This document shows, in pieces, positions 334 through 12,765 of a stretch of 13,631 bases of DNA; positions within the stretch are counted from its first letter, which is position 1; every line of letters starts with the position of its first letter. The stretch lies in contig JAIRXX010000115.1 in NCBI GenBank assembly GCA_031268065.1, forward strand, positions 1-13,631. The letters are read 5' to 3'. A program made the translations under genes and the position numbers. Below the pieces are notes generated by a model that saw only the letters and a list, made by a program, of their open reading frames with translations, was not told the origin of the DNA and ran no database searches. The DNA is from Propionibacteriaceae bacterium. GTDB lineage: Bacteria; Actinomycetota; Actinomycetes; Propionibacteriales; Propionibacteriaceae.

Positions 334-410
334 TGGTACCCCCACAGGGACTCGAACCCTGGACACGCGGATTAAGAGTCCGCTGCTCTAACCAACTGAG
401 CTATGGAGGC
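334..410 (-). tRNA. tRNA-Lys (anticodon CTT)
   Basis: The minus strand folds as a complete cloverleaf of 77 nt with an encoded CCA end (334-336). The 7-bp acceptor stem contains two G-U pairs. The D-arm reads TAGCTCAGTTGGTTAGAGCA. The anticodon stem GCGGA/TCCGC closes a 7-nt loop, CTCTTAA, giving anticodon CTT, which reads the lysine codon AAG. The T-arm is CAGGG-TTCGAGT-CCCTG. A TATATT at 420-425 (minus strand) lies 9 nt before the mature 5' end and could be its -10 box, with no convincing -35 box. Confidence 0.97.
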
Positions 411-475
411 AGGTGCCTGAATATACTAGCTCACTTTCTGCCTAACTGCCGAAAAACGGGTGAACTGGTGGCGGG

Positions 476-1204
476 CTAACGGTGTTGGCCCTGTTTGCGG
501 ACGAAGCTGATCCGCTGGGCGCGCAACTCGTCCAGCTCGGGGTTGGGCAGGGGGTCGAGTTGGCGGTCCAGCGCCAGCTCTAGCAGAAAATCGGCCAACT
601 CCGGGTTTCGGGCTAGCACCGGGCCGTGTGGATAGCTGCCGATGACTCGTCCCTGTACGGCGCCCTCGCTGCCGTCGCCGTTGTTGCCGATCCCGATCTC
701 TACTCGTGCCAACGCTGCCGCGTCGGTGCCCAGGTAGCTGAAGCCGCCGTGGTTCTCGAAGCCGGTGATCAGCGACTCGCTGCCGTCTGGTTTGGTCCAA
801 CGGGTCAGAATCTCTCCTACGGCTCTCTCGCCGCCGCGCCGGGTTTCCACGTCGAGCAGGCCCAGGCCTTCTACCACTTCGTCATTGTCACCCACGGTGA
901 AGGTCTTGCCGGTGATCTGGAAACCGGCGCACACGGCGAAGAGCACCGCACCCGCCCCCACCGCTGAGAATAAGTTGCCGTCCTCGCGCAGGTACTTGAC
1001 CGCCGAAATTTGGGCAGCGTCTTCTCCGCCGCCCAACAAGTAGACCGCACCATCGGCTGGCAACCGCTCCCCCGGCTCCACAGTGACGACTTCGGCGTCG
1101 ATCCCGCGCCAGGCTAGGCGCTGGCGGAGCACCAGGGCGTTGCCGCGATCACCGTAAATCCCGAGCAGCGATTGATAAACCAGAACGATCTTGACTGCGC
1201 TCAT
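476..1204 (-). CDS. gatD: GatD, glutamine amidotransferase subunit of lipid II isoglutaminyl synthase
   Basis: This 242-aa class-I (CobB/CobQ-like) glutamine amidotransferase has its nucleophile Cys92 in the motif VCAGFQ and the paired His193 in SYPHGPVLARNP. The LLGGGEDAAQ segment (residues 56-65) is also typical of GatD. In the family, GatD releases ammonia from glutamine and passes it to MurT, which converts the D-glutamate alpha-carboxyl of the lipid II stem peptide to D-isoglutamine in the cytoplasm. Length and motifs are normal and nothing looks degraded. Its ATG overlaps the stop of the upstream repeat ORF as ATGA, and a GAGG sits 5 nt upstream. In related genomes gatD directly follows murT; here about 640 bp intervene. 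A tRNA-Lys gene follows. Confidence 0.93.
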   Translation of the reverse strand: MSAVKIVLVYQSLLGIYGDRGNALVLRQRLAWRGIDAEVVTVEPGERLPADGAVYLLGGGEDAAQISAVKYLREDGNLFSAVGAGAVLFAVCAGFQITGKTFTVGDNDEVVEGLGLLDVETRRGGERAVGEILTRWTKPDGSESLITGFENHGGFSYLGTDAAALARVEIGIGNNGDGSEGAVQGRVIGSYPHGPVLARNPELADFLLELALDRQLDPLPNPELDELRAQRISFVRKQGQHR

Positions 1205-1848
1205 CGCAACCTCGCTGGGACAGTCCCACAGCCCCGGACGATGACCGGTTTTCGGAGTGGGTAGGTGGGATGCCAGGTGCCCGTAATGGGGTTTCGACGG
1301 GCAATGGTTGGTTTGTGGGAAGGCCGGTGGGGGTTGGTGTTGGCTGTGGCCGCCCTCCAGGGTTCCAACGGCGGGTGCGACGACGTGTGTTGGCTGGTGT
1401 TGGTTGTGGTTGGTTTTGGGGTGGTTGTTGGCCGGTGGGGTGGTTGGTTGGGGTTGGTGTTTGTTGTGGCCGCCTCCCAGGGCTTCAACGGCAGGTGCGA
1501 CGACGTGTGTTGGCTGGTGTTCGTTGTGGTCGCCCTCCAGGGCTTCAACGGCGGGTGCGACGATCTGAGATAGACGACGTTGTGGCTGGTGTTGGCTGTG
1601 GCCGCCCTCCAGGGTTCCAACGGCGGGTGCGGCGGCGTGTGTTGGCTGGTGTTGGTTGTGGTCGCCCTCCAGGGTTCCAACGGCGGGTGCGACGACGATC
1701 TTGGGTAGACGTTGTGGTTGGTGTTGGCTGTGTTTGGTTTGGGGATGGTTGTTGGTTGGTTGGGGTTGGTGTTTGTTGTGCTCGGTGTCGAGGTGGTGGT
1801 TGGTCTGTGGGGAGACCAGGTGTGGCTGGCATTGTGGCGGATGCTCAT
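1201..1848 (-). CDS. Pro/Thr/Asn/His-rich tandem-repeat protein nested between murT and gatD (unknown function)
   Basis: A 215-codon frame starts in an ATGA overlap with the murT stop and ends in an ATGA overlap with the gatD start, so all three frames are linked without a gap. AGGAG lies 5 nt before its ATG. The protein is low-complexity and very basic, with no signal peptide or membrane segment. A nonamer H-[PL]-P-L-[EK]-P-W-[RE]-A occurs five times (residues 54-62, 74-82, 98-106, 118-126, 158-166). The copies are separated by Thr/Asn/Ser-rich linkers such as TTTNTSQHT and TNTNPNQP. The last 35 residues are non-repetitive. I recognise no family, and long disordered structure is likely. The opposite strand is also open, so translation is inferred from the two coupled junctions rather than from homology. 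The alternative is non-coding minisatellite DNA that happens to preserve the frame. Confidence 0.6.
   Translation of the reverse strand: MSIRHNASHTWSPHRPTTTSTPSTTNTNPNQPTTIPKPNTANTNHNVYPRSSSHPPLEPWRATTTNTSQHTPPHPPLEPWRAATANTSHNVVYLRSSHPPLKPWRATTTNTSQHTSSHLPLKPWEAATTNTNPNQPPHRPTTTPKPTTTNTSQHTSSHPPLEPWRAATANTNPHRPSHKPTIARRNPITGTWHPTYPLRKPVIVRGCGTVPARLR
1350..1692. repeat. minisatellite: five copies of a 31-bp core at 60/72/120-bp spacing
   Basis: A core of about 31 bp starts at 1350, 1470, 1530, 1602 and 1662, with only one to four differences between copies. Spacings of 120, 60, 72 and 60 bp are all multiples of 12 and so keep the minus-strand frame. A pair of units (60+72 bp) appears duplicated as a 132-bp block: copies at 1530 and 1662 share flanks coding for HNV-Y-RSS. 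A 27-bp exact direct repeat also occurs at 1442-1468 and 1754-1780. Between cores the plus strand is rich in GGTTGG and GTGTTGG. Confidence 0.93.
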
Positions 1849-3308
1849 CGTTGCTCCTGGTGGGTGGTGTCCGCTGATTGCGGTGTGGAAGGGGGGAGCC
1901 GCCTGCCCGGCGGCTTGGAGCCGGGCAGCAGGCCAGCCATTTTGAGCAATGCTTGGAACGGTGTGTAAGTGGCGATCACATCGACCACACGGGCAGGTTC
2001 AGCGGGGTCGGAATCCGCACCGCCAACGTCCAATGCTTCGCGCAAATCTGGAACGATCTGATGCTCCACTCCCGCGTGGCTGAGCCGGACGGCGAGGTCT
2101 TGGGCGCGGGGGCCGCTGCAGATCACCTGCCTGCCCGCCAACTGCTCATAATCCACGTCCCACAGCCAGGAGACGTCTTTGCCGTCAGCGGCCACCGAGT
2201 CAATGGCCAGCACCACCGGGTCGCTGGCCAACAGGGGCAACGCCTCCGCCCAGCCAGCCGGATTCTTTGCCAGCAGCAGTCGGGCACGGGTTTGGCCGAA
2301 GACGGCGGTGGCGTACCGCCCAGCCGGAGAGACCACTTTGCGCATCCCTTTCAGGGCGGTCTCCACGCCCACCCCGAATGCAGACGCGGCGGCCAGGGCC
2401 ATCGCCGCGTTGGAAATGTTGAAGGAGCCAGGCACGCGCAATTGCGGGTCGATAAGACGCCCATCGGGCAGCTTGATCAGCGGCCCTCGCACTGAGTATT
2501 CGGCCTCGGGCTGGGTGAGCGGACAAGCCGGGCAGTCCCAGCGGAGATACGATCCGGGCTGGTCGCCACCCGCGCCGGGTGCGGGTACGCGCCGGAGCAC
2601 CGATCCGCAGGCGGGGCAGAGGGCCGAGTCCGCGCTCCAGAGCAGGGCGGTGTCCACCCAAACCACCTTGGCAGCCGTCTGCGCCGACCAAACCACCAGC
2701 GGATCAGCCGCGTTGGCGATCACCACCGGCCCGGTCACCCCGGCTTTGCCCAAGGCGAAACGCCAAGCCTTGCCCAAGGCCTTAATCTCATGGTGGCGGT
2801 CCAATTGGTCACGGCTGAAGTTGAGGAAGACCAATACCTCCGGGTTGCCGTAGGCGATCATGTCGGAAACTACCCTCTCATCGGTCTCCAACACAGCGAT
2901 GTCGGCATCACGCGCCTGGCTGAGCGCCGAGGCGATTCCATAGCGCAGATTCGCCCCGTCTGCGTTGGTGACCAATCTGCCGCTGGCCCCGGCTAGCTCC
3001 TCCCGAATCACCGCCGCGAGCAGGTGGGTGGTGGTCGTCTTCCCATTCGTGCCAGATACGGCGAGCACCCGAGGCTCGCGCAAGAGCAGCTGGAAAGCAT
3101 CCGGCGCCAGCTTGGTGAGCACCTGGCCGCGAATGGATGCTCCAGAGCCTTTGCCCAACGCACGCGAGGCCAGCGCGGCCAAATCCCCAAGCCAAGTGGC
3201 GAAACGGAGCCGGACGCGGTCGGCCTGTCTGAGTGACGCCGGGTGGTCTGGTTCTTGTTGGGACACCAGCGCACCGCCCGCGCTATCGCCGTTCACCGTG
3301 GATTTCAT
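1845..3308 (-). CDS. murT: MurT, Mur-ligase subunit of lipid II isoglutaminyl synthase
   Basis: This 487-aa Mur-ligase-like protein has the ATP-binding P-loop GTNGKTTTTH (residues 86-95), followed by TNADGANLRYG (114-124) and the central-domain LNFSRDQLDRHHE (162-174). A four-cysteine zinc ribbon CPAC...CPAC (Cys231, 234, 259, 262) is typical of MurT and absent from MurC-F. The C-terminal DUF1727 domain carries LLLAKNPAGW (344-353) and DVSWLWDVDYE (378-388), which includes the conserved Asp implicated in catalysis. With GatD it amidates D-Glu of lipid II at the inner membrane face. I chose the ATG at 3308 because AGGGGGAG lies just upstream; a start 16 codons earlier has no better signal. The N-terminal 20-30 residues are non-conserved looking. 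The stop overlaps the next ORF as ATGA. Confidence 0.94.
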   Translation of the reverse strand: MKSTVNGDSAGGALVSQQEPDHPASLRQADRVRLRFATWLGDLAALASRALGKGSGASIRGQVLTKLAPDAFQLLLREPRVLAVSGTNGKTTTTHLLAAVIREELAGASGRLVTNADGANLRYGIASALSQARDADIAVLETDERVVSDMIAYGNPEVLVFLNFSRDQLDRHHEIKALGKAWRFALGKAGVTGPVVIANAADPLVVWSAQTAAKVVWVDTALLWSADSALCPACGSVLRRVPAPGAGGDQPGSYLRWDCPACPLTQPEAEYSVRGPLIKLPDGRLIDPQLRVPGSFNISNAAMALAAASAFGVGVETALKGMRKVVSPAGRYATAVFGQTRARLLLAKNPAGWAEALPLLASDPVVLAIDSVAADGKDVSWLWDVDYEQLAGRQVICSGPRAQDLAVRLSHAGVEHQIVPDLREALDVGGADSDPAEPARVVDVIATYTPFQALLKMAGLLPGSKPPGRRLPPSTPQSADTTHQEQR

Positions 3309-3385
3309 TGTGTCTCGCTCCCCCTGCTTGTCATCACTGTTCTCCCGCACCCGCAACGCCAGCCGCCTATTCGCCCGTCCACTCG

Positions 3386-3395
3386 GAGCATGCTC
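3386..3395. repeat. 10-bp perfect palindrome between the SGNH gene and murT
   Basis: GAGCATGCTC lies directly after the SGNH hydrolase stop codon in the 87-bp gap before murT. It has no loop and no following T-run, so a terminator role is doubtful. The short spacing suggests that SGNH and murT can be co-transcribed. Confidence 0.3.
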
Positions 3396-4190
3396 TTAGC
3401 TGCTCGCGGAAGCCGGGCAGATGGTTTGGTAGTTGGGGAACTTCGCCGAACGGTGCTCTCCAGAGCTGGTCTTCCTGATCCGCCTGCCCAGCCAGGGGCC
3501 GACGTAGTTGCGCAGCCAGTGGGCATGCCAACGGGCGGACTCAGGCAGAGTTTTGGACGGCTCCGGCGGCAACGGGGCATCCCAGTCTGGAGAGTCGGGA
3601 GCCAGGCCGAGCGAAACCAGCGCCGCTTGGGCGATGCGCTCATGCCCGTCGGGCAGCAAGTGGATGCGGTCTGGATACCACAGCCGGAAGTCGCGCAGGC
3701 TGGCCATCTTCCAAGTGTTGACCACCCGCGCCCCGTATTCCTCGGCTATGCCGACCAGGTGGATGTTAAACAGCGCCGTGCGTTTGCGGGACAACTTGAT
3801 CAAGGGGGAGTCAACGGTGTCAATGCCGGTGAGCAGCAGCACGTCTACCCCCGCCTCGCGGAACAGGCGCACGGCGGACCCGAGTTGCGCGGCCATGTCG
3901 TCTGGATCGCTGTTGACCCGAAGCATGTCATTCCCGCCGCCCCAGATCGACACCAGATCGGGTTGGAGGTCGAGCGCCGGTCCCACTTGCTGGCTGAGGA
4001 TGGGGGACAGCAGCCTGCCCCGAACGGCCAGGTTCGCGTAGCTGACGTTCTCGCCAGCCCGATTCGCCAGATGCTGGGCCAGCCGGTCCGCCCAGCCGCG
4101 CGGCTTCCCGTCCGGGTAGTAGTCCTGCAAGCCTTCGGTGAGTGAATCGCCCAAGGCCACGTAGCTCCGCCACGGATGCGTGCTTGCCAT
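3396..4190 (-). CDS. SGNH/GDSL-family hydrolase, cytoplasmic
   Basis: This 264-aa protein carries all four SGNH blocks: GDSLTEG with nucleophile Ser16, AVRG with Gly58, GGGND with Asn87, and DRIH with Asp174 and His177. Family members are esterases, lipases or acyl/acetyl hydrolases; the substrate cannot be read from the sequence. There is no signal peptide or lipobox, so it should act in the cytoplasm. The C-terminal 60 residues (rich in Pro, Trp, Arg) extend beyond the catalytic core. The start is well supported: GGAGG lies 5 nt before the ATG. It is upstream of and co-directional with murT (87-bp gap), so it may share an operon with the lipid II amidation genes. That hints at an envelope precursor substrate, but this is inference. 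Confidence 0.9.
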   Translation of the reverse strand: MASTHPWRSYVALGDSLTEGLQDYYPDGKPRGWADRLAQHLANRAGENVSYANLAVRGRLLSPILSQQVGPALDLQPDLVSIWGGGNDMLRVNSDPDDMAAQLGSAVRLFREAGVDVLLLTGIDTVDSPLIKLSRKRTALFNIHLVGIAEEYGARVVNTWKMASLRDFRLWYPDRIHLLPDGHERIAQAALVSLGLAPDSPDWDAPLPPEPSKTLPESARWHAHWLRNYVGPWLGRRIRKTSSGEHRSAKFPNYQTICPASASS

Positions 4191-4304: not shown

Positions 4305-5213
4305 CTATTGGCTGGTTCTGCTTTGCCGGGCGGTGGTTTGCGGTTTGGGGACGTGCCGGGCGGGCAGCGGCAGCGCGGCGTTGATTTCAGTCAGCGCTGT
4401 CGGCGGGCCGAGCGGGCCGCGCTCTTTGGTGGCTCGGGTCAACTCGTTGGGCACTCCGGTGATGGCCGCGATGATGTCCTCGTAGGTCACTTCATCCATC
4501 GAACCTTCGCCGTTTACCCGCCCGTGCCGCATTACGACGATGCGGTCGGCCACCGCCTGCAAGTCGGAGAGGGTGTGCGAGATGAACATCACCCCGTAGC
4601 CGAGTTCGCGCAATTGCTCGATGAGGTTGAGCACTTCGGCGGTCTGGGTCACCGACAGCGAACTCGTCGGCTCGTCCATTATCACGATCCGAGGCGAGCC
4701 GAGCATGGCGCGGGCGATGGCGGTGATTTGGCGCTGTCCAGCGGAGAGGTCCGCGACCAGGGTGCGCACCGGTGGGATTTTCGCGCCCAGTTCGCGGAAG
4801 ACGGTGCGGGCGATCTCTTCCATTTCGTTGTCTGCGATGGCGACTGGCCCGGTGAGTTCGCGGCCTAGGAAGAGGTTCTGCACGATGCTCATGTTGTCGC
4901 AGAGGGCCAGCTCTTGGAAGATGGTGGCGATTCCAAGCTCTTGGGCCGCAGACGGGCTGGAGATGTCGGTGGGCGCCCCATCCCAGAAGACGACGCCGGA
5001 TTCGGGCCGGTAGACCCCGGCGATAGTTTTCGCCAGCACCGACTTGCCTGCGGCGTTGTCCCCCACCACGGCTACGACCTCGCGCGGGTAGATGTCGAAA
5101 TCAACTTGGTCGAGGGCTTGCACTGATTTGAAGCTTTTGGAGACTTGGCGGAAGGCGAGGATCGGCTGCCGGGTTTGCGGGGTGGGCGGGATATCGCGGA
5201 CGAGTGAGATCAT
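4305..5213 (-). CDS. single-domain sugar ABC transporter ATP-binding protein (FrcA/XylG-like), orphan
   Basis: This 302-aa protein has one ABC ATPase domain of the CUT2 sugar type. Walker A is GDNAAGKS (51-58), the Q-loop Gln is at 100, the signature is LSAGQ (156-160), Walker B is RIVIMDEP with catalytic Glu181, and the switch His is at 213. Two positions deviate from the usual GDNGAGKST and LSGGQ, but the required Lys57 and Ser58 remain, so ATP hydrolysis is plausible. About 50 C-terminal residues, rich in Pro, Thr and Arg, follow the domain and look disordered. The ATG at 5213 overlaps the ROK stop as ATGA, which excludes the longer upstream frame. No permease or binding protein accompanies it. 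It may energise a permease encoded elsewhere or the divergent GguB-like permease. Confidence 0.88.
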   Translation of the reverse strand: MISLVRDIPPTPQTRQPILAFRQVSKSFKSVQALDQVDFDIYPREVVAVVGDNAAGKSVLAKTIAGVYRPESGVVFWDGAPTDISSPSAAQELGIATIFQELALCDNMSIVQNLFLGRELTGPVAIADNEMEEIARTVFRELGAKIPPVRTLVADLSAGQRQITAIARAMLGSPRIVIMDEPTSSLSVTQTAEVLNLIEQLRELGYGVMFISHTLSDLQAVADRIVVMRHGRVNGEGSMDEVTYEDIIAAITGVPNELTRATKERGPLGPPTALTEINAALPLPARHVPKPQTTARQSRTSQ

Positions 5214-6397
5214 GCTGAGGCCTCCACTGCTGTTATCGGTAGTGAAATCGAATCGAAGGCGAACGCCACCGCGCCGTGGACGGCGGCGTCGTCTCCGAGA
5301 GCTGAGAGCTGCACTTGCGGCGGGTTGAGCGGGTTGCGCAGCGAGTTCCGCTCGATGGCCGCTTCGAGCGGGGCGAGCAGCACCGCGCCGGCGTCGGCAA
5401 GTTCGCCGCCGATGACGATGAGTTCCGGGTTGATCAGGTTGCACAGCGACGAGAGGGCCGCGCCGACGTAATGCGCGGCGTCGCTGATGACGCGGGAACA
5501 GCCGATATCGCCTTGGCGGGCCATTGTGATCACATCGCGCAAGGTGACATTTCCCACTGTGTGCCGCAGCGAGTGGACGATGGCCGTCGAGTTGACCATC
5601 ACTTCCAGGCAGCCCCGGTTCCCGCAGCGGCAAAGCTCCCCGTTCTCACTCACCCGGACATGGCCTATCTCCCCGGCTGTGCCGTCGTGCCCGCGCAGCA
5701 GCTCGCCGTTGGCCATGATCCCAGCGCCGATGCCATACCCGATGGAAACGAAAACCGCCGAACTCGCTTCTCTCGCCACCCCGTGCCGAGACTCGCCCAA
5801 CATCGCCAAGTTGGCGTCGTTATCGACCACCACCTGCTTGCCCAGACGCCGCGACATCGATTCAGCGAGGCGGACTTCATCCCACCCGCGCAGCAATCCA
5901 GGCACCGAGAGCATGTCCGTCTCCGCGTTGTACGGTGCGCAAATGCCCAATCCGGCGCCAAGCAATTCACCTGGGGGAGCGCCGATTGACTCCAGCATGT
6001 CGGAAACCAATTGCGCCGCCCGGTCCATGTCCGTGTCATGCCGGTGGTCAGGGGGCAGCGGCAGCCGCTGTCTTGCGACGATTGTGCCGCTGGGATCGGC
6101 CAAAGCCACCCGCAACGCCCGCGTCGAGAAATGGATCCCCGCCACCAGCCCCAGGCCGCGCGAGAGCGTCACCTGGAACGCCCGCCGCCCGGAGCGGGTC
6201 ACCTGGGTGGTGGTCACGATGCCTGCGGCTACCAATTCGTTTACGATGATTGAGACCGTGGCAGTGGACAGGCCGGTGGCGTCGGCCAACTCGACCTGGG
6301 TCATCGCGCCGAGGCGCTTGACCGTATCGACTATTCGGGCGCGGTTAGCTTCGCGGAGTGAACTCTGCGAACCAGGAGGCACCCTTCCGATAGCCAT
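5210..6397 (-). CDS. ROK-family transcriptional regulator (HTH plus sugar-kinase-like domain)
   Basis: This 395-aa protein starts with a winged-HTH region (about residues 15-70, containing TQVELADATGLSTATVS) and continues as a ROK domain. The Zn site is GEIGHV (His246) with CRCGNRGC (Cys256, 258, 263). The sugar-binding/catalytic motif DNDAN is intact (Asp194), but the phosphate loop reads GYGIGAG rather than GTGIGGG, so kinase activity is doubtful and a sugar-sensing repressor is more likely. I chose ATG 6397. A TTG at 6418 would add seven residues, but then the GGGGAGTAGG purine run (6409-6418), which looks like the ribosome binding site, would itself be coding. The gene is divergent from the multiple-sugar operon, its probable target, and translationally coupled to the downstream ATPase. 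A leader hairpin precedes it. Confidence 0.92.
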   Translation of the reverse strand: MAIGRVPPGSQSSLREANRARIVDTVKRLGAMTQVELADATGLSTATVSIIVNELVAAGIVTTTQVTRSGRRAFQVTLSRGLGLVAGIHFSTRALRVALADPSGTIVARQRLPLPPDHRHDTDMDRAAQLVSDMLESIGAPPGELLGAGLGICAPYNAETDMLSVPGLLRGWDEVRLAESMSRRLGKQVVVDNDANLAMLGESRHGVAREASSAVFVSIGYGIGAGIMANGELLRGHDGTAGEIGHVRVSENGELCRCGNRGCLEVMVNSTAIVHSLRHTVGNVTLRDVITMARQGDIGCSRVISDAAHYVGAALSSLCNLINPELIVIGGELADAGAVLLAPLEAAIERNSLRNPLNPPQVQLSALGDDAAVHGAVAFAFDSISLPITAVEASA

Positions 6398-6547: not shown

Positions 6548-6649
6548 CATCCTTACCGCCGAACCCACGGGTGAGGCAGCTACGAAGAAGTACAGCGAAG
6601 GACTCCAATGCAGGAAGACCTTCAGAAGACCCCAGAAGGGACGATCTTT

Positions 6650-7768
6650 ATGGCAAAACGCAAGATCATCGCAGCGCTGGCCGCCATTGCAATGGGATTC
6701 ACCGCATTGGCAGGCTGCTCAGCTGAACGCCCCGCAGGCTCCCCATCAGCCGGCGGCGACGAGCCGGAGGCTGGTGGCCTTATCGGCATCACCATGCCGA
6801 CCAAGAGCCTTGAGCGCTGGAACAACGACGGCGCCGAGTTGGACCGGTTGCTCAAAGAAGCCGGCTATACCACCCAACTCGACTACGCAGACAACAAACC
6901 AGAAGAGCAAGTCAAGCAGCTGGAGAACCAGATCAACGCCGGCGCCAAGGTGCTGGTGATCGCCTCCATCGAGTCGAAGGCTCTGCTCCCCACCCTGCAG
7001 AAGGCCGCTGACGCCGGGATCAAGATCCTCGCCTACGACCGCCTGTTGATGGACACCCCGAACGTCGACTACTACGCCACCTTCGACAATGAAAAGGTCG
7101 GCACCTTGCAGGGCACCTTCATCGAAGAGCAGCTTGGCCTCAAAGACGGCAAAGGCCCGTTCAACTTGGAGCCATTCGCCGGCAGCCCCGACGACAACAA
7201 CGCGAGCCTGTTCTTCAAGGGCGCTTGGGACATCCTCAGCCCCTACGTCGTTGACGGCAAGCTGGTCGTGAAGTCCGGCAAGGATCCGAAGACCCTCGCC
7301 GATTGGACCTCCATTGGCATCCTGGCTTGGAAGACCGAGACCGCGCAGTCCGAGATGGAAAACCGGCTCAACTCCTTCTATGGCGACAGCAAGGTCAACG
7401 CCGTGCTATCCCCCAACGACTCGCTGGCGCTGGGCATCGCCCAGGCTCTAGAGTCCAAGGGCTACAAGACCGGCGATGACTGGCCGTTGCTCACCGGGCA
7501 GGACGCCGACGTTGCCAATGTGAAGAACATCCTCGCCGACAAGCAGTCGATGACTGTCTGGAAGGACACCCGCGAGCTGGCCAAGCAAGCGGCCAAGATG
7601 GTTGATCAGATCATCAAGGGACAGACCGTCGATACCAACAACGACACCTACAAGAACAACACCAAGACCGTCCCCACCTATCTGCTCGATCCGCAGACCG
7701 TGGTGAAGGACCAAGTTCAGAGTGTGTTGGTCGATTCTGGATTCATCAAGGCCGATCAGCTCCAGTGA
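6650..7768 (+). CDS. multiple-monosaccharide ABC transporter substrate-binding lipoprotein (ChvE-like)
   Basis: This 372-aa protein belongs to the periplasmic-binding-protein type 1 (CUT2) group. A lipoprotein signal peptide spans residues 1-23, with the lipobox LAGC at its end, so the mature protein is anchored outside the membrane at that Cys. A short Pro/Gly/Glu-rich tether follows, and then the sugar-binding fold beginning at GLIGITMPTKSLERWNNDG. Features seen in ChvE-like proteins include ADNKPEEQVKQLENQI, AYDRLL and LTGQDAD. It would capture aldoses such as xylose, glucose, galactose or arabinose; the exact ligand is not readable. The ATG at 6650 is preferred because AGAAGGGA lies 8 nt upstream and the signal peptide then begins MAKRK; a start 14 codons earlier lacks both advantages. 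It is the first gene of the operon. Confidence 0.93.
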   Translation: MAKRKIIAALAAIAMGFTALAGCSAERPAGSPSAGGDEPEAGGLIGITMPTKSLERWNNDGAELDRLLKEAGYTTQLDYADNKPEEQVKQLENQINAGAKVLVIASIESKALLPTLQKAADAGIKILAYDRLLMDTPNVDYYATFDNEKVGTLQGTFIEEQLGLKDGKGPFNLEPFAGSPDDNNASLFFKGAWDILSPYVVDGKLVVKSGKDPKTLADWTSIGILAWKTETAQSEMENRLNSFYGDSKVNAVLSPNDSLALGIAQALESKGYKTGDDWPLLTGQDADVANVKNILADKQSMTVWKDTRELAKQAAKMVDQIIKGQTVDTNNDTYKNNTKTVPTYLLDPQTVVKDQVQSVLVDSGFIKADQLQ

Positions 7769-7788
7769 GTTAAGGGCTATTCGCCGAC

Positions 7789-7827
7789 GGGGTGTGGCAC
7801 ATTGTAGTGGAGCAGGTGCCACACCCC
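7789..7827 (+). promoter_or_regulatory. intercistronic stem-loop between the binding-protein and ATPase genes
   Basis: GGGGTGTGGCAC (7789-7800) pairs perfectly with GTGCCACACCCC (7816-7827), leaving a 15-nt loop. No T-run follows, so it is unlikely to be a full terminator. In sugar ABC operons such stems typically protect the upstream message or cause partial read-through, giving more binding protein than ATPase; that role is inferred here. Confidence 0.7.
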
Positions 7828-7885
7828 CGGCGGGTGGCCGCGAGCGATTTCTGGTCCCGTATGGCGAGGCAAGGAAAACTTTAAG

Positions 7886-9427
<1,542 letters not shown>

Positions 9428-9428
9428 C

Positions 9429-10598
9429 ATGGCTAGCTTCAAAGACAGCATTGGCGGCAGCTTGCGCCAGTACGGCATCATGGGCGCGCTCGTACTGGTG
9501 GTGGCGTTCTTCGCGGTGTTCACCAATGGGATGCTGCTGAACCCAGACAATGTGGCGACGCTCATCCTGCAGAACTCGTACGTGCTCATCCTCGCCATCG
9601 GCATGGTGATGGTGATCGTGGCCGGGCATATCGACCTGTCGGTCGGCTCGTTGGTCGCTTTCATCGGCGGCGTGCTCGGCTGGGCAGTCATCAACTGGCA
9701 TTGGCCTTGGCCGATGGCGATCGGGCTGGCGCTGGTGGTCGGCTTGCTGGTCGGCGCCTGGCATGGCTTCTGGGTCGCCTATGTGCGCATCCCCGCGTTC
9801 ATCGTCACCCTGTCTGGCATGCTCGTCTTCCGCGGCCTTGCGTTGATGATCGCCGGGGTGACGATGGCGGGCTTCGACCAGGGCTTCATCCAGATCTCCT
9901 CGGGCAAGCTCCCGCAGACCTTCTTCATCGGGAACCTTGACGGCTTGACGCTGATAATCGGCGCGGTCGGCGTGGCCGGCCTGGTCTTCTCGCAGTTGCG
10001 CTCGCGCTCGGCTCAGATCAAGCACGGTATCGCCACCGAGTCGCTGGGCTTGATGATCGGCAAGCTGGTGGTCATCTCAGTCGCCATCGTGGCGGTGACG
10101 GTGCGCCTGGCTGAGCCACGCGGCTTCGTGCCCTATCTGCTGCTGCTCATCGGGGTGCTGATCCTGATTTACAGCTTCGTGCTCAACCGCACCGTCTTCG
10201 GACGTCACATTTACGCCATCGGCGGCAACCTGAACGCCGCCATCCTCTCCGGCATCAACACCGCCCGCACCAACTTCATGATCTTTGTCCACATGGGGCT
10301 GCTCTCGGCCATCGCGGCGATAGTCGTGACTTCCCGCGCTGGAGCGGCGACGGCGCAGGTCGGTCAGAACTACGAGTTGGATGCCATCGCCGCCTGCTTC
10401 ATCGGCGGCACCGCAGTCACCGGCGGTATCGGAAGAATCTCCGGGGCGATGGTCGGGGCGCTGATCATGGGCGTGCTGAATATGGGCCTGTCGATCGGCA
10501 AAGTTGACCCGGCAGTGCAGCAGACCATCAAAGGCTTGGTGTTGTTGGGGGCGGTCGCCCTAGACCTGCTCTCCAAGCGCCGCGCCAAGGTGGCCTGA
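9429..10598 (+). CDS. mmsB: multiple-monosaccharide ABC transporter permease (MmsB/GguB-like)
   Basis: This 389-aa, highly hydrophobic protein has roughly ten or more membrane segments, starting near residue 18 (MGALVLVVAFFAVF). The BPD_transp_2 landmarks are present: GHIDLSVGSLVAFIGG, VTLSGMLVFRGLAL, YAIGGNLNAAILSGIN and CFIGGTAVTGGIGRISGAMVG. The length suits the GguB/MmsB group, which is longer than RbsC because of an extra mid-protein segment. Here that segment is about residues 160-260 and contains SQLRSRSAQIKHGIATES. It forms the membrane channel for the sugar delivered by the upstream binding protein. It is the last gene of the operon; a strong stem-loop follows 22 bp after its stop. 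Confidence 0.95.
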   Translation: MASFKDSIGGSLRQYGIMGALVLVVAFFAVFTNGMLLNPDNVATLILQNSYVLILAIGMVMVIVAGHIDLSVGSLVAFIGGVLGWAVINWHWPWPMAIGLALVVGLLVGAWHGFWVAYVRIPAFIVTLSGMLVFRGLALMIAGVTMAGFDQGFIQISSGKLPQTFFIGNLDGLTLIIGAVGVAGLVFSQLRSRSAQIKHGIATESLGLMIGKLVVISVAIVAVTVRLAEPRGFVPYLLLLIGVLILIYSFVLNRTVFGRHIYAIGGNLNAAILSGINTARTNFMIFVHMGLLSAIAAIVVTSRAGAATAQVGQNYELDAIAACFIGGTAVTGGIGRISGAMVGALIMGVLNMGLSIGKVDPAVQQTIKGLVLLGAVALDLLSKRRAKVA

Positions 10599-11550: not shown

Positions 11551-12765
11551 CTACGGGCGTTTGGCGACTTCGGCGGCGGTGTCGGGCAGTGATTTCAAGT
11601 AGCCCTCGAATGCTTGGGCGGCTACTCCGCGGCAGACGGCGTTCCCGTTGGCGCCCGGTTGCTCAATCCGCACCGCGCCCAGGGGCACCGCTAAGGAATG
11701 GCTGTTGATGTCGGGCTGGGCCTGGTCAATGAGAACTGGGCCGAGTTGGCGGGCGACCCATCCGGTGACCACGATTATGGAGGGGTTGAGGAAGTTGACG
11801 ATGGATGCCAGCGCCATCCCCAGGTAATGGCCGGTCAGCGCGATCACTTCCAGCGCGGTGGGGTCGTTCTTGGCGGCGGCGGCGGCGCGTAGCGCGTTGA
11901 TGGTGGCTGTCTGGTCGTCGCCGCGCAGCAAATGGCTTCCGGGATCGGCCTCCCGAAGGGTTTGGATGATGCCCGGCGCCCCGACGTATGCCTCCACGCA
12001 GCCACGGGAACCGCAGCGGCAGGCCCGCCCGTCTCCGAAAAGGACGGTGTGCCCCCATTCCCCGGCGCTATTGGTGCTGCCGCGATGCACTTTCCCCTCG
12101 ATGGCGAAAGCCGCCCCAACGCCGGTGCCCAGGTTCACCACGGCGAAGTCTTGGGAGCACCGTTCCGGGTTCGCCCAAATTTCGGCCAGCACCAGCGACT
12201 TCAGCGGATTGTCCAAATACAGCGGCGCTGAGACGCTGGGCGCGAGCATGTCTATCAGCGGGACGTCATGCCAGCCCCAGTTTGGGGCGAACAGGGACAG
12301 CCCGCCAGCCTGGTCCACTTGGCCTGGCGCCGCCACCCCAACTCCGAGCAGGCGGTGTCCGGGATGCCTGCCCTGCTCTTCGGCGATGGCGGCGTTGACT
12401 TCCAGCAGCACTTCTTCGGGGCTATTTACGCTGGGCTGAGTCTCGCGCCGGGTGTGCGAGACCGTATCCAACGCCAGGTCGAGAGTTTCGACATGCACGT
12501 AGGTTTCGGCGATATCGACGCCGAGGAAAACGCCGTGGCTGGGATTGAGGGCGAGTTTTGTGGTCGGCCTCCCGACCGTTGGGGCTGCGCGGCCAACCTC
12601 GACCAGAACTTGGTTGGCGATGAGCTTGCCGCAGATGGTGGCAACAGTCGAGAAGCTGAGGCCGGTGGCCTCCACCAGTTCGCGGCGGGTGCAGACCCCA
12701 GCGGCGTGGATGGCACGCGCAACCGCGAAAGTGTTGAAGCTGTGGATGTCCGCGACAGTTTGCAT
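11551..12765 (-). CDS. ROK-family transcriptional regulator, second copy, with degenerate catalytic motif
   Basis: This 404-aa protein has an N-terminal winged HTH (about residues 8-65, TRRELVEATGLSFSTVATI) and a ROK domain. The Zn-binding site is intact: GEWGH (His239) and CRCGSRGC (Cys249, 251, 256). The phosphate loop GTGVGAA is near canonical, but the NDAN motif that supplies the catalytic Asp reads DNPLK, with Pro187 where the Asp should be. Kinase activity is therefore very unlikely and a pure ligand-responsive DNA-binding role is favoured. The start follows GGAGG with a 4-nt spacer. It is divergent from a family-1 sugar-binding protein gene, its likely target, across a region with a long perfect inverted repeat. 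It is clearly a different paralogue from the ROK at 5210-6397, with little identity outside motifs. Confidence 0.92.
   Translation of the reverse strand: MQTVADIHSFNTFAVARAIHAAGVCTRRELVEATGLSFSTVATICGKLIANQVLVEVGRAAPTVGRPTTKLALNPSHGVFLGVDIAETYVHVETLDLALDTVSHTRRETQPSVNSPEEVLLEVNAAIAEEQGRHPGHRLLGVGVAAPGQVDQAGGLSLFAPNWGWHDVPLIDMLAPSVSAPLYLDNPLKSLVLAEIWANPERCSQDFAVVNLGTGVGAAFAIEGKVHRGSTNSAGEWGHTVLFGDGRACRCGSRGCVEAYVGAPGIIQTLREADPGSHLLRGDDQTATINALRAAAAAKNDPTALEVIALTGHYLGMALASIVNFLNPSIIVVTGWVARQLGPVLIDQAQPDINSHSLAVPLGAVRIEQPGANGNAVCRGVAAQAFEGYLKSLPDTAAEVAKRP

Follow-up and report, generated by a model that had tools for sequence, protein, structure and literature searches.

A private, repeat-built open reading frame between murT and gatD in a Propionibacteriaceae genome and its possible role as a translated bridge

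The window considered here is a stretch of 13,631 nucleotides which makes up the whole of contig C78 (GenBank JAIRXX010000115.1) in the 75.7% complete draft genome (2.23 Mb, 385 contigs) of a bacterium of the family Propionibacteriaceae, and the subject is its junction of murT and gatD, whose products MurT and GatD are characterized as one amidotransferase complex (PMC6085368). At this junction an insert that is private to the species and built of repeats split the ancestral 4-nt overlap of murT and gatD. The insert carries an open reading frame (ORF) of 215 codons, designated here as the bridge ORF, and with a probability of about 0.58 we consider it a translated bridge that would preserve termination-reinitiation from murT to gatD. 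According to this reading the ribosomes ending murT would reinitiate at the bridge ATG, translate a filler of low complexity, terminate at the old murT stop codon, and reinitiate on gatD; the peptide would probably be a dispensable filler, and the job of the frame would be to tie GatD synthesis to MurT synthesis. Translation of the bridge, the importance of coupling to the species, and selection for the frame are what we infer.

The insert and the native murT-gatD junction

The spacing of the two genes was measured from a fixed point at the murT end to another at the gatD start in 71 of 82 loci; in the other 11 the murT anchor was not readable, and ten of these were viewed by eye and left uncounted. 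Part of the loci had been sampled irrespective of the gap, and others had been picked largely for gaps read by eye from tables. The window showed 793 nt versus a modal value of 71 nt, that is, 722 nt more. After a recount by distinct genome, with 84 other readable family genomes and 11 unreadable ones (locus L029 was excluded as belonging to another family), murT and gatD overlapped or lay at most 3 nt apart in 82 of the 84; an earlier interpretation made from the sequence alone (the sequence-only reading) had stated that these genes usually abut. The 84 junctions comprised 71 at -4 nt, 7 at -1, 3 at +3, 1 at +2, and two exceptions. The direct ATGA overlap without any bridge ORF was present in all 22 readable same-genus relatives (29 same-genus genomes searched). 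In alignment the MurT of six relatives, including the best metagenome matches P0002 and P0003, terminates with MAGLR, while the window MurT possesses 27 residues after MAGL at the place where relatives carry only R. No further family gap of at least 100 nt was seen by eye among genomes with both genes on one contig, the next one being that of G178 with 95.

Both exceptions in the family also keep translation continuous, which supports the bridge reading. The first (L301, genome G202) is an in-frame murT::gatD fusion. The second (L252, genome G208) contains 170 extra nt with a separate 56-codon ORF that extends from the ATGA of murT to the ATGA of gatD; its sequence is unrelated to the window insert, and its two junctions have GCGATGA in common. 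Thus, if both bridges are translated, there is no gap of more than 3 nt at any of the 84 other family junctions or in the window. Smaller lengthenings in L027, L272, and L257 resulted in C-terminal extensions of MurT or N-terminal extensions of GatD. As a separate observation, the MurT proteins P0003 and P0043 of relatives contain low-complexity insertions of some 45–70 residues between the cysteine pairs of a cysteine-rich segment and end with the normal MAGLR.

The coordinates confirm the frame described in the sequence-only reading, a minus-strand ORF that runs from the murT ATGA to the gatD ATGA with AGGAG before its ATG: the bridge ATG (1848-1846) overlaps the murT TGA (1847-1845), and the bridge TGA (1203-1201) overlaps the gatD ATG (1204-1202). 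The right ATGA sits within TGCGATGA, a context which is found at the sole junction of same-genus relatives, so that the bridge stop is the old murT stop; judged by this context the right ATGA is inherited and hence no coincidence. The left ATGA lies within the same octamer CGATGAGC, which is located at 1850 and 1206 with a third same-strand copy at 10152, and therefore looks like a copied junction, suggesting that it is a duplicate of the ancestral one. The proposal that such double ATGA nesting is beyond chance thus stood for the inherited right ATGA and not for the left one, which looks copied, the open frame alone being weak evidence. Because the left octamer copy is situated about 78 nt inside the insert and not at its edge, a simple target-site duplication cannot account for the whole event. 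The signs of a transposable element or miniature inverted-repeat transposable element are limited to the octamer at both junctions and, as inverted repeats, a hairpin of local extent plus a single inverted pair of 10 nt. The inverted repeat at the left border overlaps the final native murT codons and was found as a single copy across 41 genomes in a search allowing up to 3 mismatches.

The repeat character of the ORF, also claimed earlier, was established by the detected periods of 60, 72, 132, 48, and 21 in the insert; the minisatellite copies (GCCGTTG...) begin at 1684, 1624, 1552, 1492, and 1372 with steps of 60, 72, 60, and 120 nt. Exact self-matches occur at offsets divisible by 12 in 14/14 cases for matches of at least 14 nt, 21/22 for at least 12 nt, and 30/44 for at least 10 nt, and array steps of multiples of 12 mean that changes in copy number preserved the frame.

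Searches of the own draft genome with the whole insert and with its core revealed one real locus; with the E limit raised to 10, a further 19 matches appeared, which were short and weak (best E 0.069). In the own genome the 21-base core pattern occurred 5 times, always within the insert array, and it had one match with 2 mismatches in each of 8 of the other 59 genomes. Besides the own genome, 19 of 198 family genomes contained short matches only (best E 2.4e-6), and the genome collection contained one exact core match on a Microbacterium contig, with about 23 nt around the pattern in common. The idea of a dispersed element was rejected because copies were lacking. Tandem bases per kb of non-coding DNA, which was defined by a crude gene caller with the exclusion of two contigs reading N, amounted to 19.5 for the own genome (42 contigs), 31.2 for genome G021 (20 stretches), and 18.0 for genome G015 (20 stretches); fifteen own contigs picked for repeat matches (36.6) and the window itself (81.3) were kept apart from this comparison. 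By these values the own genome does not stand out, and a genome-wide repeat excess was rejected.

Coding character and signals of the bridge ORF

No homologues of the bridge ORF product were detected at E <= 0.01 among 5.8 billion proteins, and no family was matched in Pfam, NCBIfam, or PHROG. The G+C content by codon position is 0.454, 0.653, and 0.755, while the nine window genes have first-position values above the second and high third-position values. The codon log-likelihood was -0.43 for the bridge ORF versus +0.17 to +0.41 for the nine genes; the synonymous-codon score was weakly positive (+0.119) versus +0.194 to +0.41, and a stop-free shifted frame reached a nearly equal +0.084. After training on the window genes, the crude gene caller passed over the bridge ORF and made a marginal call of an antisense ORF at 1265-1573. 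Among the five repeat copies the single-base codon differences were 3 synonymous and 32 non-synonymous, and the bridge frame had the lowest synonymous share of six frames, although with low power in view of five related copies. By these measures the bridge ORF lacks the look of a protein gene under selection, and no purifying signal on the peptide is apparent.

These data also bear on the suggestion that the ORF encodes a genuine protein that might serve MurT-GatD as, for instance, a tether, a regulator, or a partner associated with the wall. Despite the AGGAG as a Shine-Dalgarno-like site, the uninterrupted frame of 215 codons, and the positive synonymous-codon score, we consider such a protein highly improbable: no homologue or family was found, the codon usage is not gene-like, purifying signal between the repeats is missing, and the ORF is absent in the 22 same-genus relatives. 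The sequence-only reading named as refuting an ORF that is broken in close relatives beside intact murT and gatD; the finding of relatives with both genes intact and no such ORF tells against a conserved partner and has no bearing on a private bridge.

The anti-Shine-Dalgarno duplex was estimated at -6.6 kcal/mol before the bridge ORF, in comparison with a median of -5.5 for the 22 same-genus junctions and of -2.9 for random 20-mers, one in ten of which reaches -7.0; at both window junctions the Shine-Dalgarno strength is within the range of native junctions. No sigma-70-like promoter or terminator-like site was seen in 1000-2100, no Rfam match was found in 400-3400, and the fold z-score was -1.1, on which grounds a structured RNA, promoter, or terminator role was rejected.

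The features of the locus are collected in Table 1. The Mur ligase middle, MurT_C, and GATase_3 domains are all present in the MurT/GatD pair (Pfam); in NCBIfam the top match of the murT product is MurT and the top matches of the gatD product are GatD, with scores under the curated cut-offs in both cases. Elsewhere in the window a sugar ABC transporter of ChvE/GguA/GguB-like type occupies 6608-10598, and ROK-type proteins are encoded at 5210-6364 and 11551-12765.

Table 1. Features of the murT-gatD locus in the window
Feature	Position	Strand	Basis
murT (lipid II isoglutaminyl synthase subunit MurT), 487 aa, ATG at 3308	1845..3308	-	Pfam PF08353 + PF08245
gatD (glutamine amidotransferase subunit), 242 aa	476..1204	-	Pfam PF07685
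Bridge ORF, 215 codons, 215 aa	1201..1848	-	ORF list
AGGAG, Shine-Dalgarno-like, upstream of bridge ORF, 5 nt from its ATG	1854..1858	-	sequence
Left octamer CGATGAGC: bridge start and new murT stop, overlapping in ATGA	1843..1850	-	sequence
Right octamer CGATGAGC: gatD start and ancestral murT stop, overlapping in ATGA	1199..1206	-	equal context in same-genus relatives
Insert, about 722 nt relative to modal murT-gatD spacing	1205..1926	-	spacing and junction sequences; borders uncertain by few nt
Imperfect inverted repeat, 14-nt arms, 86% complementary, 8-nt loop	1898..1933	.	left border of insert
Minisatellite, five copies of ~60-nt unit	1351..1697	-	repeat analysis

Several other repeats were observed in the course of the searches. 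In the own genome, repeated GGGACAAACT / TTTGTCCCA motifs in both orientations are located in intergenic-looking DNA (L168, 8740-9200; L156, 19120-19200) and possibly constitute a small dispersed palindromic element. A TTGGTTGGGATTGG-type array, which resembles the TG-rich part of the insert, is situated at a contig end (L151, 1-64, the start of contig C343), and the assembly may break at arrays of this type. In G068, which represents another genus of the family, repeats in L066, L085, and L087 are 73–80% identical to part of the insert, which probably reflects shared low complexity.

Coupling, chance, and the alternatives

The argument for a bridge depends on what is known of translational coupling. 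In six gene pairs of E. coli and H. volcanii coupling was almost lost when the genes stood about 20 nt apart, and genes for subunits of one complex show an enrichment of overlaps (PMC10666635), while a softer view in a review puts the loss of coupling at 3- to 10-fold up to about +40 nt (PMC12548453). Since coupling is reported to need an overlap or a very short gap, an untranslated gap of 722 nt would be expected to uncouple GatD, and a bridge with two -4 overlaps would not. The Shine-Dalgarno strength at both junctions, the frame-keeping steps of the array, and the negative promoter scan of 1000-2100 also count in favour of the bridge.

Several points weigh against this reading. Over the 648-bp stretch, three of the six frames are free of internal stops. 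The gatD gene has its own Shine-Dalgarno-like site, at -7.7 kcal/mol, and might start alone. A 12-nt building block may yield 12-nt steps without selection. In dinucleotide shuffles (3000 trials, with ATGA given at both ends) the bridge of L252 was reproduced in 1312 of 3000 cases at the same length and still in 412 of 3000 with random phase, the respective values for the window being 392 and 117 of 3000; because the window was selected for being bridged, L252 is the sole independent test in the family, and a weak one. Moreover, the gatD of L252 may start at an alternative ATG that precedes the junction ATG by 6 nt. Finally, the 40 junctions sampled outside the family, in large part on account of their gaps, divide into 16 with a 4-nt overlap, three with overlaps of 1, 8, or 11 nt, and 21 with the genes at least 10 nt apart, and 18 of these 21 have no -4 chain, with unbridged spacers of 12–34 nt in ten f20 genomes, 69 nt in L330 (f20), and 10–16 nt in seven f18 genomes. 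A class-wide overlap rule for murT-gatD is ruled out by these junctions, and they indicate that gatD can start alone in other lineages, which leaves a fair share to a neutral explanation.

In that explanation the insert is a neutral minisatellite which is open because its strand is poor in T, gatD initiates alone, and the double ATGA is an inherited junction plus its duplicate with no present role. The 61 T in 648 minus-strand bases, the three open frames, the gatD duplex, and the unbridged spacers of 10–69 nt all agree with it, but the phase must then fit by chance, as in the 117 random-phase shuffles, and both other family exceptions keep translation continuous; we regard it as possible and on balance rather doubtful. 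Even less probable than a genuine protein would be an assembly artefact, in which the repeat was misjoined or mis-sized: the draft is fragmented and incomplete and repeats are hard to assemble, but the insert lies within a contig, the murT and gatD at its sides are ordered and oriented as expected, and a second copy was not found in the own genome. The best fit is the translated bridge, which the sequence-only reading gave as its alternative, namely an insertion that is tolerated and maintains translational coupling through its open frame.

In the remaining three gapped junctions outside the family, short ORFs with -4 overlaps form a chain that leads from murT to gatD. In L335 and L358 the chain ORF has 6 and 5 codons, respectively, and chance is easily sufficient at such lengths; in L326 (around 449-535) an 81-nt spacer with repeated junction sequence contains two short ORFs with -4 overlaps. 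In L321-L325, all five sampled genomes of one genus, GatD has a proline-rich, low-complexity N-terminal extension of roughly 65 to 220 residues that begins from the GTGA of murT. The outcomes at murT-gatD therefore include bridge ORFs (window, L252), short-ORF chains (L326, L335, L358), a fusion (L301), and long GatD extensions (L321-L325). We tentatively suggest, as an idea that may well prove wrong, that duplication of an NTGA overlap is self-rescuing because it brings its own stop and start, so that tandem-repeat growth between coupled subunit genes could persist as a chain of filler ORFs; murT-gatD would then be a natural series on the tolerance of coupled genes for insertions in which no mobile element takes part. 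If the bridge reading holds, an ORF of considerable size in the operon of a wall enzyme would be a translated spacer, neither junk nor protein gene, and gene finders would misname the class; the locus would also serve as a natural test for a dependence of the MurT-GatD balance on coupled translation, since relatives differ by up to 722 nt at the junction.

Comparison with known systems

The closest known system is the mycobacterial interspersed repetitive unit (MIRU), the likeness being one of architecture. Supply et al. in 1997 reportedly described that the internal ORF of MIRU also overlaps the stop of the upstream gene, and the window bridge ORF, which overlaps the murT stop, resembles MIRU in this respect. 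MIRUs are described as units of 40–100 bp, some with variable copy number, at 41 places in one genome (PMC2734929), and as repeats of apparent mobility with an ORF that is coupled at -4 nt to the target gene, on which it likely has little effect (PMC12548453). Similarly, the bridge ORF has a -4 nt overlap with the start of the gene downstream, and the array steps of 60 and 72 nt are comparable with the MIRU unit; unlike MIRU, the insert was found at one locus in its incomplete draft, and the array moves in 12-nt steps. Thus, the insert works like a MIRU, while membership is unsupported, as the architecture is common to both and the dispersal is not.

Another comparable case is the tandem repeats between rnc and fpg, which measure 279–358 bp in the M. 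tuberculosis complex, compared with 1–20 bp in most other listed mycobacteria and 54 in M. leprae (PMC2734929). Like these repeats the window array is lineage-private; an ORF overlapping both neighbours is not described for them in the available source text (PMC2734929). In common with termination-reinitiation at NTGA overlaps, both window junctions are at -4 nt and flank subunit genes of one complex (PMC10666635, PMC12548453), but in contrast to the usual NTGA pairs the ribosomes would, as proposed for the window, reinitiate twice in succession with a filler ORF in between. In T-even phages mobE is inserted between nrdA and nrdB and overlaps the upstream stop in UAAUGA (PMC2988022), which resembles the position of the bridge ORF between subunit genes and over the upstream stop; unlike the latter, mobE is a homing endonuclease gene, and a middle promoter is described between mobE and nrdB (PMC2988022). 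No ORF between murT and gatD was found described in a literature search of titles and abstract openings. What looks new in comparison with these systems is a locus-born minisatellite that uses a MIRU-like trick, and the existence of several solutions at one and the same junction.

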